Below, piece by piece: positions 9,775-42,452 of a stretch of 64,000 nt of DNA (position 1 is its first letter; every line of letters begins with the position of its first letter). The stretch is from a virus: IMG/VR virus record IMGVR_UViG_3300042991_000236, positions 1 through 64,000 of that record. One strand, 5' to 3'. The notes under the pieces were generated by a model. That model did not search any database, had not been told where the DNA came from, and saw only the letters and a list, made by a program, of their open reading frames with translations. The translations under genes and the position numbers were made by a program.

Positions 9775-12700
9775 GTGGCTGATTCATCTATGCTTATTAA
9801 CTGGGGTGTACCAACAACAGGTAGCCCTTCTACTGCTCCTGCGCCTATTGCCAGCTTTGAATCTATCATGGGTAAAGACCCACGATACTTAAATGCTGAT
9901 GCTGCTGGTAAAGCTCGTATGGAGTTTGCCTATCAGCAGTTAGCTGAAGCTCAGGCTTTACAGGATCCGAACAATCCTCTTGTTGCAGAAGCTAAAGCTG
10001 CCCAAGCAGAAGCAGATAGCCAGGGTTTCTTGGCTAACATGTTTGATAAAACCATACGGTCTCACAAGCAAGCCTTTGATGTTGCTCCTCGAGTTGCCGA
10101 TGCAATGAATCCTGATGGATCCGTAGCTACAGACTTTGGAGCCTGGAGTGCGAAGTACTTTCAGAAGCAACAAGCTGCTCCAAGAACATATGAAGATAAA
10201 AAGCTTGATGCTGATCTGACTCAGAGAATCAAAGCATGGAATGATGGTGGGCCAACAGAAAAGGTTCAGGCAGCCTTTGGGATCCTCGGAGATATACTGA
10301 CCAACCCTAAAGCTGCTATGTACGCTGGAGCCGATTCTGCTTCGTCTATTACTGCAATGTTGCTGGGTGCCAAGACAGGTGGATTAATTGGTGGTGCTGC
10401 AGCTGGACCCGTTGGTGCTACTGTTGGTACAGTTGTAGGTACGGTTGGAGCTTCTGCTTCTCACTCTGCAGCCCTCAAGTTTATGGAACTGGTTCAGAAA
10501 GGTCTTGATGAAGACAAGATCCCATATACTGCTTCCAACATTCAATCCTGGATGGAAAATAACACAGATAAAGTTCAAGAATACCAGACCAAGTCTACCA
10601 AGTATGGCATGTCTATGGGCGTGGCTGATGCTGCCTTTGGCGCAGTTGGTGGTAAAGTAGCAACAACCTTCGAGAGAGCAGCGTTGCGACAAGCCAATGC
10701 TTCAGCATTGGCGCCAGTCGGAAAAGCTGCGATCTCTGAAATCGTACAAAAAACAGGATCAACAGTTGAGGATGCTACTCAAGCATATATCCAGTCTCAG
10801 GCTAGAAACACTTTAGCTACGCAAACATTCAAATCCAAGGTTGGCTATAAAGCAACTGGTCTGGGCACAGAGATTATCAGTGAGCCGGCCACAGAAGCTA
10901 TCGGTACTCTGTCAGCTGGTGAAGAGCTCTCTGCTAAAGAATTGATTATGGAGGCTGTTGGTGGTGTAGGTGCAGGACCATATGGGGCTGCAGTCAATAC
11001 ATCTATCTTTGGTACCAAGATAGCCGGTGACCAGACAAAGGCGTTTGCCAAAAAATTATTGGCCAGTACGCCTGAGTCCCGGGCAGCCGAAAAAGAACAG
11101 AAAGCTGAGATTAAAGCAGCGACTCTCCAGAGACAGTCTCCGGCACACTTCCAGAGAGAAGTTGCAGCGACTGATCCAACAGATCCGAAAGTTGATATGT
11201 GGGCTGACCATACAAATAAAGAAACCTATGATCCAATCAAAGCAGTAACTGTCCTGGCTAAGACAGTGGATCCTGATTCAACAGTTGTAGAGAAAGCTCG
11301 TGCCGTACAAAACACTTACCTAGATGAGCTAAATAAAGACTACGATAAGTACGACGAACTGCAGGCGCAATTCGATGCAGTTAAAGATAAAGATAAAGCA
11401 GCAGAAGTTAATCTCGAAAGTCAGCTAGTTAATCAAAGGGCTTTACTTAAAGAGAAACGTAGTGTGTACGACCAGGTAGCCGGCCAAGTTACTTTGATAA
11501 AGAATGCGGCTTTAGAGGTTGGTAAAGATAAACCAGTAGATACACCACTGGATAATCCGGCAACCATTAAACCAGATGATCTGACTGATCACATTACTCA
11601 ATCGTTTGGATCTCGTGATACGACGCCCGATGAGCAGATCACAGAACTCCTGAAGAGATCAGATCTATCAGCTGAACACAAAACCATGTTACAGGATATG
11701 GCTGACTCCAACGCTATCCGAAAGGTTATTACTGATAGAGCTACTAGTGGTAAGTCTATGGATCAGGTCAGTGCTGATATTTATCATGGTCCTAAAGGCT
11801 CTAAGTTCAAAGGTATTGACTCTTATAAACAAGGTGTCAGAGAAGCTCTTACTTCTGGTAATACTGTGCAATTAACCAAAGAGCTTGAAGGGCTTAAAGC
11901 TTTCAGAGATGCTCATGTTACCAAGGATCAAAATGTTACTGAGATCCTGGCAGCAATGAAAAGCAAAGAAGGCTTATCTAAAGAACAATCAGCAACCTAT
12001 CTTAAACTTCAGAGAGAAAATTCAAACTTTGAATTACATCCGATAACATCGGTTGGAATGGCAGGTAATATCAAACGAGAGGCTGCTGCTCTGAATGCTG
12101 AAGTAAAGCTTGCTGAGAGTCTCATAGCTGTCCATAAGACCAAAGGACAGGTGGTAGCCTCACCTACTCCGAGTTCACCCGTTGTGAGCGATTCTGCTTC
12201 GTCCAGTTTAGATATATCTAAATTATCTTTTCCTGAACTACAAAGTATGCACGTTGCAGCTACTGCAGCCATTAACGCAAGTGATAATTTAGATTCAAAT
12301 ATGGAGCAGTTGGCTATAAAAAAGCAGGTTACTGATGAATTAACTAGAAGAGGAGTTGATCTTAAAGGTAGGCCATTAGTCACAACGAGTTCGGCCTCTA
12401 CAGCCAATCCTGCTTCGTCCGAATCTTCTGTAAAATATGGATTTAAATTATCACAAGATAAACTTGGAAAAGACCAAGGTAAGGCTGATGTTGCTAATGC
12501 TTTTATCGGGTATGGTGCGCTGAATAGAAAGAGCTCAACCGGGCAATATGCGGCAGATGCTAAGTCTCAAAATATTCCTGTAAATGAGGCCATTACTCCT
12601 GATGCCACAACTCGTGCTTTTGTATCAGTATCTTCTGAGGGAATATATAATATACAAACCATAGAACAAGCGGGTCGCATACTTGATGCTGGTGGCACTG

Positions 12701-37793: not shown

Positions 37794-38387
37794 TTAGGCG
37801 TATTGCCAGACAAATCCATGAGCTTCAGGTCTGCCGCCTTTACAGGCGTAATTTATATTTGTTCTACAAAATCCTGTATCTCTGGCAGCTTTAGAAATAG
37901 ATAAGTGTGTCTTCATATATTCGCCAGATAGTGTTAATTGTACGATTTTTTGGCATTGTCTAGTTACACGTTTACAGCTTTTTCGTTCTTCATAAGCTGC
38001 ATCATTATTTTCTTTCCAAGTGACTAATCGAATATTTGTGAAAGAGTAGCCTTCAGTAGAATTTATTCTATCCACTGAAGGTCTTAAATTTTTAACATAA
38101 CCACTTAACTCCCAATTATTAAACAGTCTGATTAGCCCGTTGGCATGTAGCCAATCAGACAATTCTTGTTTAGTGTACGTTGGTGGTTTATGCCCTCTTT
38201 GCACTGAAGCAGTTATTTCACCGTTGTATATATTTGAAATAATACCTGGGACAGTTTTATAGTATTTTTTAACATGCTCAGCAACACAGGATTTACATAC
38301 CAAACTGTGTCCATCTTTATTGCTGGGTGCGCGTGAAAACTCTGTAAGTAGTTTTAATTTAAGGCACCTTTTGCAATTTCTCTTCAT
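37794..38387 (-). CDS. HNH-like homing endonuclease, zinc-ribbon/NUMOD type
   Basis: About 197 residues from ATG 38387 (SD AAAGGA). The N-terminal zinc ribbon (CKRCLKLKLL, then CKSC) is followed by the core LRPSVDRINSTEGYSFTNIR, a DRI...GY..NI signature of a family of phage HNH-type nucleases. A C-terminal NUMOD1-like domain (LSISKAARDTGFCRTNINYA) binds DNA. It overlaps the last 29 bases of the polymerase C-terminal gene, and a paralogue of the same design lies at 56869-57531. It is probably free-standing and targets the polymerase 3' end. Confidence 0.75.
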   Translation of the reverse strand: MKRNCKRCLKLKLLTEFSRAPSNKDGHSLVCKSCVAEHVKKYYKTVPGIISNIYNGEITASVQRGHKPPTYTKQELSDWLHANGLIRLFNNWELSGYVKNLRPSVDRINSTEGYSFTNIRLVTWKENNDAAYEERKSCKRVTRQCQKIVQLTLSGEYMKTHLSISKAARDTGFCRTNINYACKGGRPEAHGFVWQYA

Positions 38388-39099
38388 GTTTAACAGTCCT
38401 TTCAAGTATTTGTTCTATACTGATGTAGTTAGGTAATGTACAGGCTTTACTCCAGTCTGGATAATAAATATCCAGATTCGCACCAAGTTTTACTGTCGGA
38501 TGTTGCAATTCAACAAGACCATCCCACTTCATACAATCAATCAAATTATCATTTACCCACTTAGTTATACCAGCAGTGTTCTTAAAAAACAAGTAAATTG
38601 AGTCATGAATTTGGGCACAGAGAAAGATGTCATAAATGTATGGAGAAGCCCATACCCTTTCCCTGAATTCATTGGCTGCCCGGGAGTTCAGTAGACCATA
38701 AGACTGACCCATCATATTACCAGCTGTACGGCCTTCAGCGGCTGCCTTGTATCCAAGCTTACCTGGACCATTCATCAGCAGTAAAAGCGTCCTGAGCCTC
38801 AATCCGAAGGCTCCTGTGACGTATCCATCAATCGTTGCCTGCTGTAACCGTGCAGCTACCCAATCATCAGCTTCCTTATAGAGCTCATGATAATTCGATT
38901 CAATCTTAAGAGCTGAATCCTTATCCAGACCAAGATTATTCATCAGGCCATGGAAGGTTCCCTGGTAGGTAAGCAGGAATGTAGGGGCCTTAGAGTCTTG
39001 ACGTTGCTTTGGATATTTGTCTTTGATGCTGTTGATGATCTCTGGTCGTAAGCCATTATCAATTTCTTCAATCATTTCATTACCAGTTAATTTAAACAT
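38359..39099 (-). CDS. DNA polymerase family A, C-terminal piece (motifs B and C)
   Basis: 246 residues. They contain the fingers/palm motif B region (RQDSKAPTFLLTYQGTFHG), the helix EGRTAGNMMGQSYGLLNSRA and motif C AQIHDSIYLFF with the catalytic Asp. The N-terminal piece (39561-42452) carries the exonuclease and motif A. Only the two together make a complete polymerase, which would have to assemble non-covalently. The start is ATG 39099 with SD GGGAG. It overlaps the stop of the intervening HNH gene (ATGTTTAA), so translation is likely coupled. The frame extends further upstream, but only as antisense-like residues inside the HNH gene. Confidence 0.88.
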   Translation of the reverse strand: MFKLTGNEMIEEIDNGLRPEIINSIKDKYPKQRQDSKAPTFLLTYQGTFHGLMNNLGLDKDSALKIESNYHELYKEADDWVAARLQQATIDGYVTGAFGLRLRTLLLLMNGPGKLGYKAAAEGRTAGNMMGQSYGLLNSRAANEFRERVWASPYIYDIFLCAQIHDSIYLFFKNTAGITKWVNDNLIDCMKWDGLVELQHPTVKLGANLDIYYPDWSKACTLPNYISIEQILERTVKHEEKLQKVP

Positions 39100-39583
39100 C
39101 ACCTCTCCCATGATTTGGATGGTAACCATAAAAAATTTCAGCGTCTTTTCTGGCTTTAATAGCCTCTTGTTTATCAAGGAAACGGCCAAGTGGAATTGGT
39201 TTAGATTCGTGCCAAATCATAGCCACCCACTTTTTACGTGATGCTGACCAGGACACACCAACAACACCTGACTGATTGTTCTTTTGTAGCCCACAGTTTC
39301 GATTATTATCTGTCATAGTGGCATCTCTTAAGTTGCCCCATTTATTATTTAATCTATTCTGATCTTCATGATCTACAAATTTAGGTAGTATACCGGTTTT
39401 CATTAGGTAGATTGCTCGATGAGTTTTTAAGGTTTTACCTTTAAAACCAAAGTATCGATAACCATCAGAACTAATATAACCGGCTTCTTCTCCAATTTTG
39501 CATTTACCTGATTGCTTCTTCCAGATGAGTTTTCCTTCTATCTCATCATAGTGAAAATACTCATGCAACTCTGTGTTTGTCAT
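39092..39583 (-). CDS. HNH homing endonuclease splitting the DNA polymerase gene
   Basis: 163 residues. The HNH core YRYFGFKGKTLKTHRAIYLM, then GILPKFVDHEDQNRLNNKWG and LRDATMTDNNRN (His ... Asp-His ... Asn-Arg-Leu-Asn-N) is followed by an AP2-like DNA-binding domain (SGVVGVSWSASRKKWVAMIW). ATG 39583 has a strong SD (AGGGGAG) that lies within the polymerase frame. The gene overlaps the stop of the N-terminal polymerase piece by 23 bases and the start of the C-terminal piece by 8. No intron core fits in the remaining space, so the endonuclease gene itself is the whole insertion. Confidence 0.88.
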   Translation of the reverse strand: MTNTELHEYFHYDEIEGKLIWKKQSGKCKIGEEAGYISSDGYRYFGFKGKTLKTHRAIYLMKTGILPKFVDHEDQNRLNNKWGNLRDATMTDNNRNCGLQKNNQSGVVGVSWSASRKKWVAMIWHESKPIPLGRFLDKQEAIKARKDAEIFYGYHPNHGRGDV

Positions 39584-42452
39584 AATACTCCCCTATTGGT
39601 CGTTGATTACCGTCAGGGCATAGTACCATCGTATCCGCAGTAAGTATATTAGTTTGTCCATCAAGTGTTATTTTAAATTTTCTACCTGCTGTTACTGCTT
39701 GTTGCAGATCAGGCATATCGTCTTTAAAGTAACTATAAGCTCTGATGGAATGGCCGTCGAAACCATCAAGGTAAACTGCCATCTTGTTGGTGTCTCTGGT
39801 AGTCAGAGCTGCAACCATATCTTCGAGAGAATTGAAGTCAGCTCCTCCAAAGAGCCATCCTGTAATACAACCGAAGCAACTTTTGATAAATTTGCCCCAG
39901 ATCGAGGTCGCAGGTAAATTTTGCAAGTTTGGATTTGAACTATTATGAGAATAAAAGCCACATGATAAATAGCTTTCATCATCAGCTACTGTCAGGTCAT
40001 ATACAGGAGTGCTTCCGCAATAGTTGATTTCCTTGATTTCAATTCCAGGCTGTCCTGCGCCTGCAAATAATGAAGTGTTTTGTGTCCTGAATTGGTAGTC
40101 AATGCAAGATTGTCTAATGCATTGTTCAACGGATTGTTGTCGATATGATGCACGATCATGTTGTCCGGTAACTGAAGTAGTCCCAGATGTTCCATCATTA
40201 CTGCTTGATGAACAAAAACTCTTTTGTCGTTGAAGAGTATAGTCAGATAGCCTTTGCAGTCTGAACACTCTCCTTTCCAATTTGGGTGCTGTTCTTTGAA
40301 CCTTCCCTTGATAGGGTTTTTGTCTCCTGTTTTTGAGGCCGAGTATTTTACTGCTTTTATTGCAGCAAGTTCGTCTTTGGACATATTCGTTCTCAACACA
40401 TGAGAAATATTGTGCAGAGTGGTTGCTAATGCTGTAGCAATATTTTCCATAGTCATCCCATTTTTTAATGACCGGTAAAGATGTAGAGTTGCTGTTACAT
40501 TTATTGGATTGGTTACCCATGCTTTGGATATTGACATTGAGGATCTCCTTTATTGTTTTCCATTCTCCAGAAGACAATAACACTTTATGGTCAGTTGTGC
40601 AAGTGAAAATCTTCCCATTACACAATCTGATATTAACCATGTAATCTAAGCCCTTGTAAATGGTATTAATCACAGGTTTCCAATTACCTTTATGGGTATA
40701 TACGTAGTCACCAATTTTAACTTGGTAAATGGGTATTTCTCCACGATTGGTAATAATAGGAGTCCATGGAGCTACACATGATAACCTTCCTGATACAGTG
40801 CCTCCGAGGTTGAAGTTACCATACAGTCTCCAGCTTCCATCAGGCATCTGTACTGCCTTTTCGAAAGCAGGTATGAATGATGTAAGTATCTTATCTACCT
40901 GAGCCAAGCCTATCAAGGATTTGATGATAGCAATGTATTCCAGGTTTTGAGTGTGGTGAAGAAGCTTTTCAAGAGTGTCTCCACCAGTGGCCGGCTGACC
41001 AGTATCAGTGGTATCTATGATTGGAAACTTCAGGTAATTATACAAAAGGTTAGCTACCTGTTGACCACTGTTCGGATTAAATCCAAGTCTCGTAATTCTA
41101 GGATCATCCATATTAAAGACTTTCTTCTTGGCCGCTGCAGTAAACTCCTCACACTTTTTAGCTTTAACCTCTAATTGACATTCCATGATCAGTTTGGAAT
41201 TATCCAGTTTAGCTTGGTATCCACTTCGTAGATCAGTCAGAGTTTTCTTTACCCGGGCTACTTCATCAGGAAAGATAGGCATGCCTACCAATTCAGTTTG
41301 AAGTAAGGTAATCAGGGAAGGCTTGAACAGCTCTTCATAGATTTTTAGTTGATCCTGCTTGACCATGACTGAATGGTATTTGTTATAGACATGCCAGCCC
41401 GCTAAGCAGTCTTTACCGTTATACTCCAGTAGCCTATCCAAAGGGATCTTATCTGTATCGCCTATATCTTCTTCAGCATAATTACCTAAGTAATCCGCAG
41501 ATAAAACTTTAAGCTTAAGGACATTCTCTACGGCATTATTGGTAGCCAGATAGGTGATCAGCTTGGTGTCATCGAAGTCTCTGGTGAGAGCTTTGATTCC
41601 TTGGATCATACCTACATAATCCTGGAGATTCTTCATCCAGAGCTCATACGTCAGAACCTTGAAATCATATCCTCCATTATGAGGAATGAGTTTACCTTTA
41701 TAGTTCTCGAAGAAGAGCATCAGCATATGTTTTACATATGAATTGAACGGCTGATTAATCACCAGATCTGTGCTTGGAAAGGATCCACGATCAACAGGGA
41801 ATGAAATAAAGTTATGCTTGTCCCAAGCAAAAGCGATTGTGGCAATACCACATGTCCAGAAGTCCAGACCTCTAGCTTCGATGTCAACTGTAAGTGCAGG
41901 CTTGGTGTGCAAGAATTCCAGTGCAGTAGCAATCTCTCCTAAAGTCATAGGATACTGAGCCGAGTGAATTACATTGGATCCTGGGGCTTCGTAGGTCCCA
42001 GAAAGGAACTGTTTGAGATAGCCTAGAGCATTGCTCATTTCCTTATCTGTATGGGGATTGTACTTAGCCGCGTTGTAATTAGGAGCGTAGAAAACATCGA
42101 ATTTGTTTTCATATCCCTGGAGTCCAGACTTGACAGCGTATCCAATAAGATCAGTAGCTGTCTTCTGCTTACCGGTCAGGTACTTAAAGTACTTTGCGTC
42201 AGTAACCAGAATAGTCTTGATGCCAAGCGTCAGGGTTGAACACAAAACTGTCTGAAGATGTTCTTTAGCCAGTGCTGCTGGGCATTTGTCATTGTCGTCA
42301 TACCAGAGGCTGTAGGCGATAAAGCCAGCAGGATTAGCTCCAAGAGGATCGATATAAGCAGTCTTAATTTTCTCACTATTGAAACTGGTTTCTTTGACGA
42401 GTATTGCGACTGAAGCAGAAGTTGGATCAGCCCCATAGATTGCGTGTTGCAT
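39561..42452 (-). CDS. DNA polymerase family A, N-terminal piece with intein
   Basis: 963 residues before splicing, 684 after removal of the 279-residue intein (559-837). The 3'-5' exonuclease is intact: Exo I ALTVDIEARGLDF, Exo II LIPHNGGYDFKVL, Exo III LLEYNGKDCLAGW. The polymerase part reads GTVSGRLS, then (after the intein) SSNPNLQNLP and motif A FGGADFNSLEDM with the first catalytic Asp. The frame ends at 39561 after IGEYYDKHRVA, about 60 residues past motif A. Motifs B and C are in the separate gene 38359-39099. N4 has a single unsplit gene (gp39). Confidence 0.9.
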   Translation of the reverse strand: MQHAIYGADPTSASVAILVKETSFNSEKIKTAYIDPLGANPAGFIAYSLWYDDNDKCPAALAKEHLQTVLCSTLTLGIKTILVTDAKYFKYLTGKQKTATDLIGYAVKSGLQGYENKFDVFYAPNYNAAKYNPHTDKEMSNALGYLKQFLSGTYEAPGSNVIHSAQYPMTLGEIATALEFLHTKPALTVDIEARGLDFWTCGIATIAFAWDKHNFISFPVDRGSFPSTDLVINQPFNSYVKHMLMLFFENYKGKLIPHNGGYDFKVLTYELWMKNLQDYVGMIQGIKALTRDFDDTKLITYLATNNAVENVLKLKVLSADYLGNYAEEDIGDTDKIPLDRLLEYNGKDCLAGWHVYNKYHSVMVKQDQLKIYEELFKPSLITLLQTELVGMPIFPDEVARVKKTLTDLRSGYQAKLDNSKLIMECQLEVKAKKCEEFTAAAKKKVFNMDDPRITRLGFNPNSGQQVANLLYNYLKFPIIDTTDTGQPATGGDTLEKLLHHTQNLEYIAIIKSLIGLAQVDKILTSFIPAFEKAVQMPDGSWRLYGNFNLGGTVSGRLSCVAPWTPIITNRGEIPIYQVKIGDYVYTHKGNWKPVINTIYKGLDYMVNIRLCNGKIFTCTTDHKVLLSSGEWKTIKEILNVNIQSMGNQSNKCNSNSTSLPVIKKWDDYGKYCYSISNHSAQYFSCVENEYVQRRTCCNKSSKILGLKNRRQKPYQGKVQRTAPKLERRVFRLQRLSDYTLQRQKSFCSSSSNDGTSGTTSVTGQHDRASYRQQSVEQCIRQSCIDYQFRTQNTSLFAGAGQPGIEIKEINYCGSTPVYDLTVADDESYLSCGFYSHNSSNPNLQNLPATSIWGKFIKSCFGCITGWLFGGADFNSLEDMVAALTTRDTNKMAVYLDGFDGHSIRAYSYFKDDMPDLQQAVTAGRKFKITLDGQTNILTADTMVLCPDGNQRPIGEYYDKHRVA
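39942..40778 (-). mobile_element. Intein in the DNA polymerase, containing an out-of-frame HNH gene
   Basis: The 279-residue intein starts with Cys (CVAPWTPIITNRGEIPIYQV, block A) and continues with block B CTTDHKVLLSSGEW. It ends with block F VYDLTVADDESYLSCGF and block G YSHN, followed by Ser as +1 nucleophile. Its insertion point is the strongly conserved GRLSS..PNLQN motif of family A polymerases. Between blocks B and F the in-frame ~180 residues are Gln/Ser/Arg-rich and look non-globular. The endonuclease (39992-40537) is encoded there in another frame. Confidence 0.9.
39992..40537 (-). CDS. HNH endonuclease nested out of frame inside the intein
   Basis: 181 residues with a good SD (AAAGGAG, seven bases before ATG 40537), entirely inside the intein coding sequence but in a different frame. 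It contains an N-terminal helical DNA-binding region (MTMENIATALATTLHNISHV) and the HNH core: a Cys pair CSDCKGYLTILFN, FVHQAVMMEHLGLLQLPDN, then MIVHHIDNNPLNNALDNLAL and NSGHKTLHY. It should cut intein-free polymerase genes and spread the intein. In ordinary inteins the endonuclease is in frame and released by splicing. Here it must be translated separately. Confidence 0.87.
   Translation of the reverse strand: MSISKAWVTNPINVTATLHLYRSLKNGMTMENIATALATTLHNISHVLRTNMSKDELAAIKAVKYSASKTGDKNPIKGRFKEQHPNWKGECSDCKGYLTILFNDKRVFVHQAVMMEHLGLLQLPDNMIVHHIDNNPLNNALDNLALTTNSGHKTLHYLQAQDSLELKSRKSTIAEALLYMT

Follow-up and report, generated by a model that had tools for sequence, protein, structure and literature searches.

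The question raised by this locus is whether a polymerase intein and an HNH homing endonuclease can be read from the same bases in two different frames, with both frames maintained. The window that we analysed, a stretch of 64,000 nucleotides, is part of a virus record of 66,881 bases, and the features of the window described below are all on its minus strand.

An intein in a divided polymerase gene

The host open reading frame (39561-42452) encodes the N-terminal part of a family A DNA polymerase, intein included (DNA_pol_A, 9e-18; phrog_17, 6e-86). It is 963 amino acids long and continues without interruption through 40778-39942, a stretch of 837 nt without a stop codon. The top tblastn matches placed the polymerase nearest to those of N4-like (Schitoviridae-like) podophages. 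Translation, Hint blocks, intein-free alleles, AlphaFold and Foldseek all indicated an in-frame intein of 279 amino acids (39942-40778; residues 559-837 of the ORF), inserted at GRLS^SSNPNLQN. The original prediction had described an intein with complete blocks at the GRLSS..PNLQN site, and its coordinates hold: translation revealed Cys1, the TxxH of block B (CTTDHKVLL, which contains the predicted TTDHKVLL), VYDLTV, a C-terminal SHN and a +1 Ser. The splicing residues are C1, T61-x-x-H64, H278-N279 and the +1 Ser; among 20 relatives of the intein, C1, T61, H64, D261, H278 and N279 are invariant. The intein is absent at the same codon in two related polymerases, L007 (80% identical) and L008 (66% identical).

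AlphaFold, with 20 related inteins, predicted a confident Hint domain made up of residues 1-83 and 243-279, with disorder between them. The IntN half (residues 1-83; 40530-40778), which contains blocks A and B, has a pLDDT above 90 for nearly all of residues 1-80, and the conserved IntC half (residues 243-279; 39942-40052), which ends in HN before the +1 Ser, has a pLDDT of about 90 over most of its length. The in-frame linker (residues 84-242; 40053-40529) has a pLDDT below 50 throughout, is predicted to be disordered and is the coding space of the HNH gene. The best PDB matches of the model in Foldseek were the NpuDnaE and gp41-1 inteins (best E 1.6e-5). Judged from its sequence, the polA element is an intein with complete Hint blocks, and protein splicing is inferred.

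Removal of the intein would leave 684 amino acids, as predicted, which compares well with the 685 of L007. The length thus stands, whereas the product cannot be the whole polymerase: it is the N-terminal part only, because the gene is interrupted farther downstream by a second HNH gene (phrog_99; 39583-39092). This second gene, whose ATG lies within codons of the upstream polymerase part, cleanly divides the polymerase into the ORFs 42452-39561 and 39189-38359, and it is a genes-in-pieces polymerase. The C-terminal part (38359-39126; DNA_pol_A, 1.9e-9) is a separate ORF that is listed from 39189, with a start that is likely near 39126. Undivided polymerases of Pseudomonas and Achromobacter phages match across the joint, and the split is also found in L007 and absent from L008. 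No group I intron was detected at the split. An endonuclease VII-like homing-type nuclease gene (phrog_1035; 37794-38405) follows directly after the polymerase, which makes three nuclease genes in 3 kb, and a weak HNH-like match lies elsewhere in the genome (51036-51239).

An HNH gene nested in the intein

The HNH homing endonuclease gene (39992-40537; HNH_3, PF13392, 4.4e-11; phrog_7545, 7e-21) encodes 181 amino acids in phase +1 to the intein frame, its start being the second base of an intein codon. It extends from the end of IntN into IntC, with which its final ~20 codons overlap. As had been predicted, it has its own ATG and its own Shine-Dalgarno sequence, AAGGAG (40545-40550), 7 nt before the ATG. 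Across the nested family described below, Shine-Dalgarno pairing upstream of the HNH starts exceeds the background (p = 8e-11), the motif is present in 19 of 25 nested genes, and the start region M-S/A-x-S-K is conserved. In a profile of 20 nested relatives, H130, H131, N139, N143, H152 and H156 are invariant. The model of the HNH protein has a mean pLDDT of 84, and its best PDB match is I-HmuI, which is weak by E-value (E 0.47, probability 0.90). Cutting or nicking of the empty polA site by this protein is inferred from relatives such as I-PfoP3I (PMC3428280).

A family of nested genes

Single-sequence searches of viral contigs found no close relatives of the HNH protein, and the nested family came to light only through a DNA pattern of the splice junction. 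This pattern, which is blind to the nuclease, describes the junction alone (HN followed by Ser or Cys, two further residues and PNLQN) and was searched for in viral contigs. The resulting census of 44 stretches and the window contained 18 distinct polA inteins whose +1-nested HNH gene fits a single profile and 11 in which an HNH motif lies in frame; two (L204 and L224) have a DUF559 nuclease in phase +1, and none has an HNH gene in the third phase. In a mini-intein (L234), only the out-of-frame tail of an HNH gene is left, which is what the homing cycle predicts. Similarity searches added further nested cases in polA, including a Salinibacterium MAG contig (L116). In a decayed copy from Erythrobacter (L117), the HNH frame is open and the host frame has gained stops, as expected where the polymerase no longer matters. 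One locus with an open +1 frame and without a Hint or polymerase match (L084) was left out as possibly due to chance.

The median identity of the HNH proteins is 0.42, whereas that of the C-exteins among the carrier polymerases is only 0.27, a difference of the kind that horizontal movement would give. No co-conversion tract was visible around the insertion in comparison with the two relatives at hand.

Selective constraint in two frames

Over the HNH gene of this phage, the intein frame contains no stop codon, while 10.1 were expected and the minimum in 2,000 synonymous shuffles was 3; the same frame of 12 other HNH genes contains 7-26 stops. In phase +1, the only source of a host-frame stop is a T-ending nuclease codon followed by AAn, AGn or GAn. 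In the HNH gene of this phage, none of the 51 codons in such stop contexts ends in T, compared with 43 of the 129 others. In the 25 nested HNH genes, codons ending in T account for 0 of 1,208 before AAn, AGn or GAn and for 720 of 3,334 elsewhere (Fisher p ~2e-107). The 25 encoded proteins have diverged to identities of 28-71% (median 42%). No wobble-T avoidance was found in 11 intron-borne HNH genes, which have 7-26 stops in that phase. The open host frames of the wider set were partly chosen after similarity searches; the loci picked by the junction pattern are free of this bias. The original prediction suggested that an HNH gene had invaded a mini-intein in a frame that leaves the host frame open. 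The nesting is borne out, but the frame is not open by chance, since the Ts that would make stops have been purged.

Selection on the HNH frame, for which a check had been proposed, is clearly present: its codon-phase signature (0.466/0.382/0.622 at the three positions) has an excess of change at third positions. When change in the two frames was compared across relatives, as had also been suggested, the HNH frame behaved as a protein, while the identity of the intein frame in the body of the overlap was 0.219, compared with 0.211 in a stop-free synonymous simulation. A function for the in-frame linker was rejected and none is needed, because its identity among relatives is no higher than in that simulation. 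In the HNH/IntC overlap, intein-frame identity was 0.376 versus 0.214 simulated, which indicates that both proteins are constrained there. The HNH frame evolves as a protein, the intein frame that it overlaps is, in the body, merely kept free of stops, and both frames are maintained by selection.

Phase +1 can always be purged because every codon ending in T has a synonymous codon ending in C. In the other sense phase, stops would be unavoidable at every Met that precedes K, N, T, I or M, a combination present in 23 of 25 nested HNH proteins. We propose this difference as the reason that a single phase is used.

Group I intron relatives

The relatives of the HNH protein that were found and opened in GenBank phages are all group I intron genes in polA, and for this reason the nested form is known so far mainly from metagenomic phages. 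In seven opened loci, the intron lies 12 or 17-18 nt downstream of the intein insertion point, in the codons of GRLSSxxPNLQN; in Vibrio MJW it lies slightly farther on, and the intron of Pf-WMP3 occupies a different polA site (PMC3428280). In the phylogenetic tree, the intron-borne HNHs formed one well-supported clade (100/98), with the nested HNHs clustered outside it; the placement of the root and of a few long branches is uncertain. Since related HNHs occur at one polA motif in both introns and inteins, this nuclease lineage appears to have been carried by an RNA vehicle as well as a protein one, and the direction of the swap is not resolved. The original suggestion of an HNH invasion needs modification: the nesting did not arise recently in this phage but belongs to an old and widespread family, whose nearest kin are group I intron HNHs at the same motif.

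Nesting has also been found with other nucleases and in other host proteins. The DUF559 (Vsr-like) nuclease ORFs in the two polA inteins mentioned above (L204:2089-3141 and L224:2154-3098; 315-351 residues) have no T in 115 and 96 stop contexts. Unrelated HNH genes are nested +1 in a methylase intein (L094:3004-5553; T in 0 of 86 stop contexts) and in a terminase intein (L182:2893-5478; 0 of 59). In a Calothrix MAG (L134:98-3124), an HNH gene is nested +1 in a 1009-aa ORF, with no T in 80 stop contexts. It is probable, though well short of certain, that frame-nested inteins are a fourth natural configuration beside the full-length, mini and split forms; that they arose several times (with HNH and DUF559 nucleases in polA and with unrelated HNHs in the methylase and terminase inteins), always in the one phase that can be purged synonymously; and that the same polA HNH lineage has switched between inteins and group I introns that share one conserved DNA target.

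Proposed mechanism and alternatives

We consider it very likely that the element is a mobile intein that encodes its splicing and homing functions in two frames that overlap. The two frames, the dual constraint, the conserved start region, the conserved site and the recurrence of the arrangement are directly observed, while splicing, internal initiation, cutting and homing are inferred. Frame 1 would be read straight through as polymerase-IntN-linker-IntC-polymerase; the Hint halves would fold around the disordered linker of 159 residues, and self-excision would join GRLS to SSNPNLQN. For frame 2, a second ribosome would enter at the gene's own Shine-Dalgarno and ATG to produce a free 21-kDa HNH endonuclease. 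At the same conserved motif, this protein may cleave or nick polA alleles that lack the intein, and repair would then copy in the intein together with the nuclease gene, which would occupy the position of the in-frame endonuclease of ordinary inteins. Host-frame stops from a wobble T (nnT followed by AAn, AGn or GAn) can always be removed by synonymous T-to-C changes, and the family has eliminated every one.

Internal initiation may not apply to every member, since 6 of the 25 nested genes have no obvious Shine-Dalgarno. This gap could also be taken to favour programmed +1 frameshifting at the end of IntN, which would yield the HNH as a polymerase-IntN-HNH fusion and would need to occur just where the HNH frame opens, a few codons before its start. 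We regard frameshifting as improbable, however, given the conserved M-S/A-x-S-K start and the Shine-Dalgarno in 19 of 25 genes (p = 8e-11); moreover, such a fusion would use up polymerase. A somewhat better case, though still an unlikely one that we count among the rejected readings, can be made for an HNH that no longer homes within an intein that still splices, the nuclease being a passenger or having a different function, for instance in competition with co-infecting phages. Cutting has not been shown and no recent co-conversion was seen, but the family has kept both the HNH residues and the codon signature of a protein, and the occurrence at the same site in unrelated polymerases points to continuing mobility.

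Two further readings have next to no support. A sequencing or assembly error, by which one indel on either side had displaced the HNH of an ordinary intein from its frame, might be entertained in view of the in-frame HNH inteins known at the same site in the census, but it is refuted by the nested family. The original prediction had accepted that an in-frame version in relatives, explicable by a one-base indel, would overturn it. None was found: the phase is identical in at least 18 independent contigs, which together with the wobble-T purging, which an error cannot produce, upholds the independent encoding of the HNH in another frame of the intein. In addition, both frames are constrained in the IntC/HNH overlap of ~20 codons, so no indel position restores one frame. 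The possibility of an ORF-bearing group I intron that only fortuitously resembles an intein draws on the intron-borne nature of the nearest HNH genes. It was rejected as scarcely tenable, in view of the 837 nt without a stop, the full Hint blocks and their predicted fold, and the lack of any group I intron core match within the element at E up to 5, a search in which the phiL7 intron control was found at 31.7 bits. This lax search was used with its control because Rfam gathering thresholds missed even known phage introns, and their silence was not relied on alone.

Significance and comparison with known systems

In the favoured dual-frame mobile intein, the nuclease is uncoupled from the intein: it can be made without splicing, and its evolution can be that of a free protein, although its bases double as part of an interrupted polymerase gene, and the price is a strict codon constraint. 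The family provides clean natural cases of long gene overlaps, with protein-level constraint on one frame and mere freedom from stops in the other, a testable reason for the use of one phase, and a route for nuclease swaps between introns and inteins. Longest-ORF annotation hides such nested nucleases. If splicing is as inferred, natural inteins of this kind should tolerate ~160 residues of arbitrary linker.

Searches of an open-access library yielded no intein whose nuclease is encoded out of frame, and novelty is provisional because subscription papers and preprints were outside the search. The nearest described cases are the ShiLan domain and the Pacc40 gp60 insertion, out-of-frame HNHs in mycobacteriophage DNA methylases that are thought to home (PMC11855218). 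As in the polA intein, the HNH lies within an uninterrupted host gene, in a different frame. No splicing domain was found there, however, and the insertion is therefore thought to stay in the protein, whereas the polA element has a Hint domain. The ShiLan-type HNH occupies the third frame (offset 2), as confirmed in ShiLan and Mantra, not phase +1; it lacks wobble-T avoidance, and no Shine-Dalgarno is reported for it. Four phage or prophage DNA methylases (L071, L098, L106 and L161) have a zinc-finger HNH nested +1 without a Hint domain or intein; these insertions are ShiLan-like, yet they use phase +1 where ShiLan uses the other phase.

Inteins are classed as full-length, mini or split (PMC7765530), and conventional full-length inteins carry an in-frame homing endonuclease domain (PMC7765530, PMC6801210). 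Like them, the polA element has a Hint domain with a nuclease between IntN and IntC; however, their nuclease is inside the intein polypeptide, whereas here it is a separate overlapping gene. With the HNH in phase +1 and not in the intein frame, the full-length criterion is not met; nor is the split criterion, as the intein halves are not on separate ORFs. In the split inteins of the 'fractured genes' of Dassa et al. in 2009, a free-standing endonuclease gene reportedly lies between the halves. A separate nuclease ORF between IntN and IntC is likewise present here, but the halves of those inteins are apart, whereas the polA intein frame is continuous. A split polA intein in our material (L024, near 10699-11900) has a GIY-YIG-like ORF immediately preceding its separate IntC ORF, with 54 stops in the corresponding frame. 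Another polA intein (L022, near 6285, reverse strand) has IntN and IntC in different frames, through either a natural split or a frameshift.

Among group I intron nucleases, the HNH of phiL7 P45 is homologous to the nested HNH (39%, E 1e-16), and introns of this type use the same polA motif as the intein, but with an RNA vehicle 12-18 nt downstream. I-PfoP3I of Pf-WMP3 (PMC3428280) is also a homologous HNH in a polA group I intron, at another polA site. The intron-borne polA genes have 7-26 stops in phase +1, whereas the nested genes are stop-free. The dual-coded, frame-nested mobile intein appears, provisionally, to be an undescribed arrangement of a known kind of mobile element.
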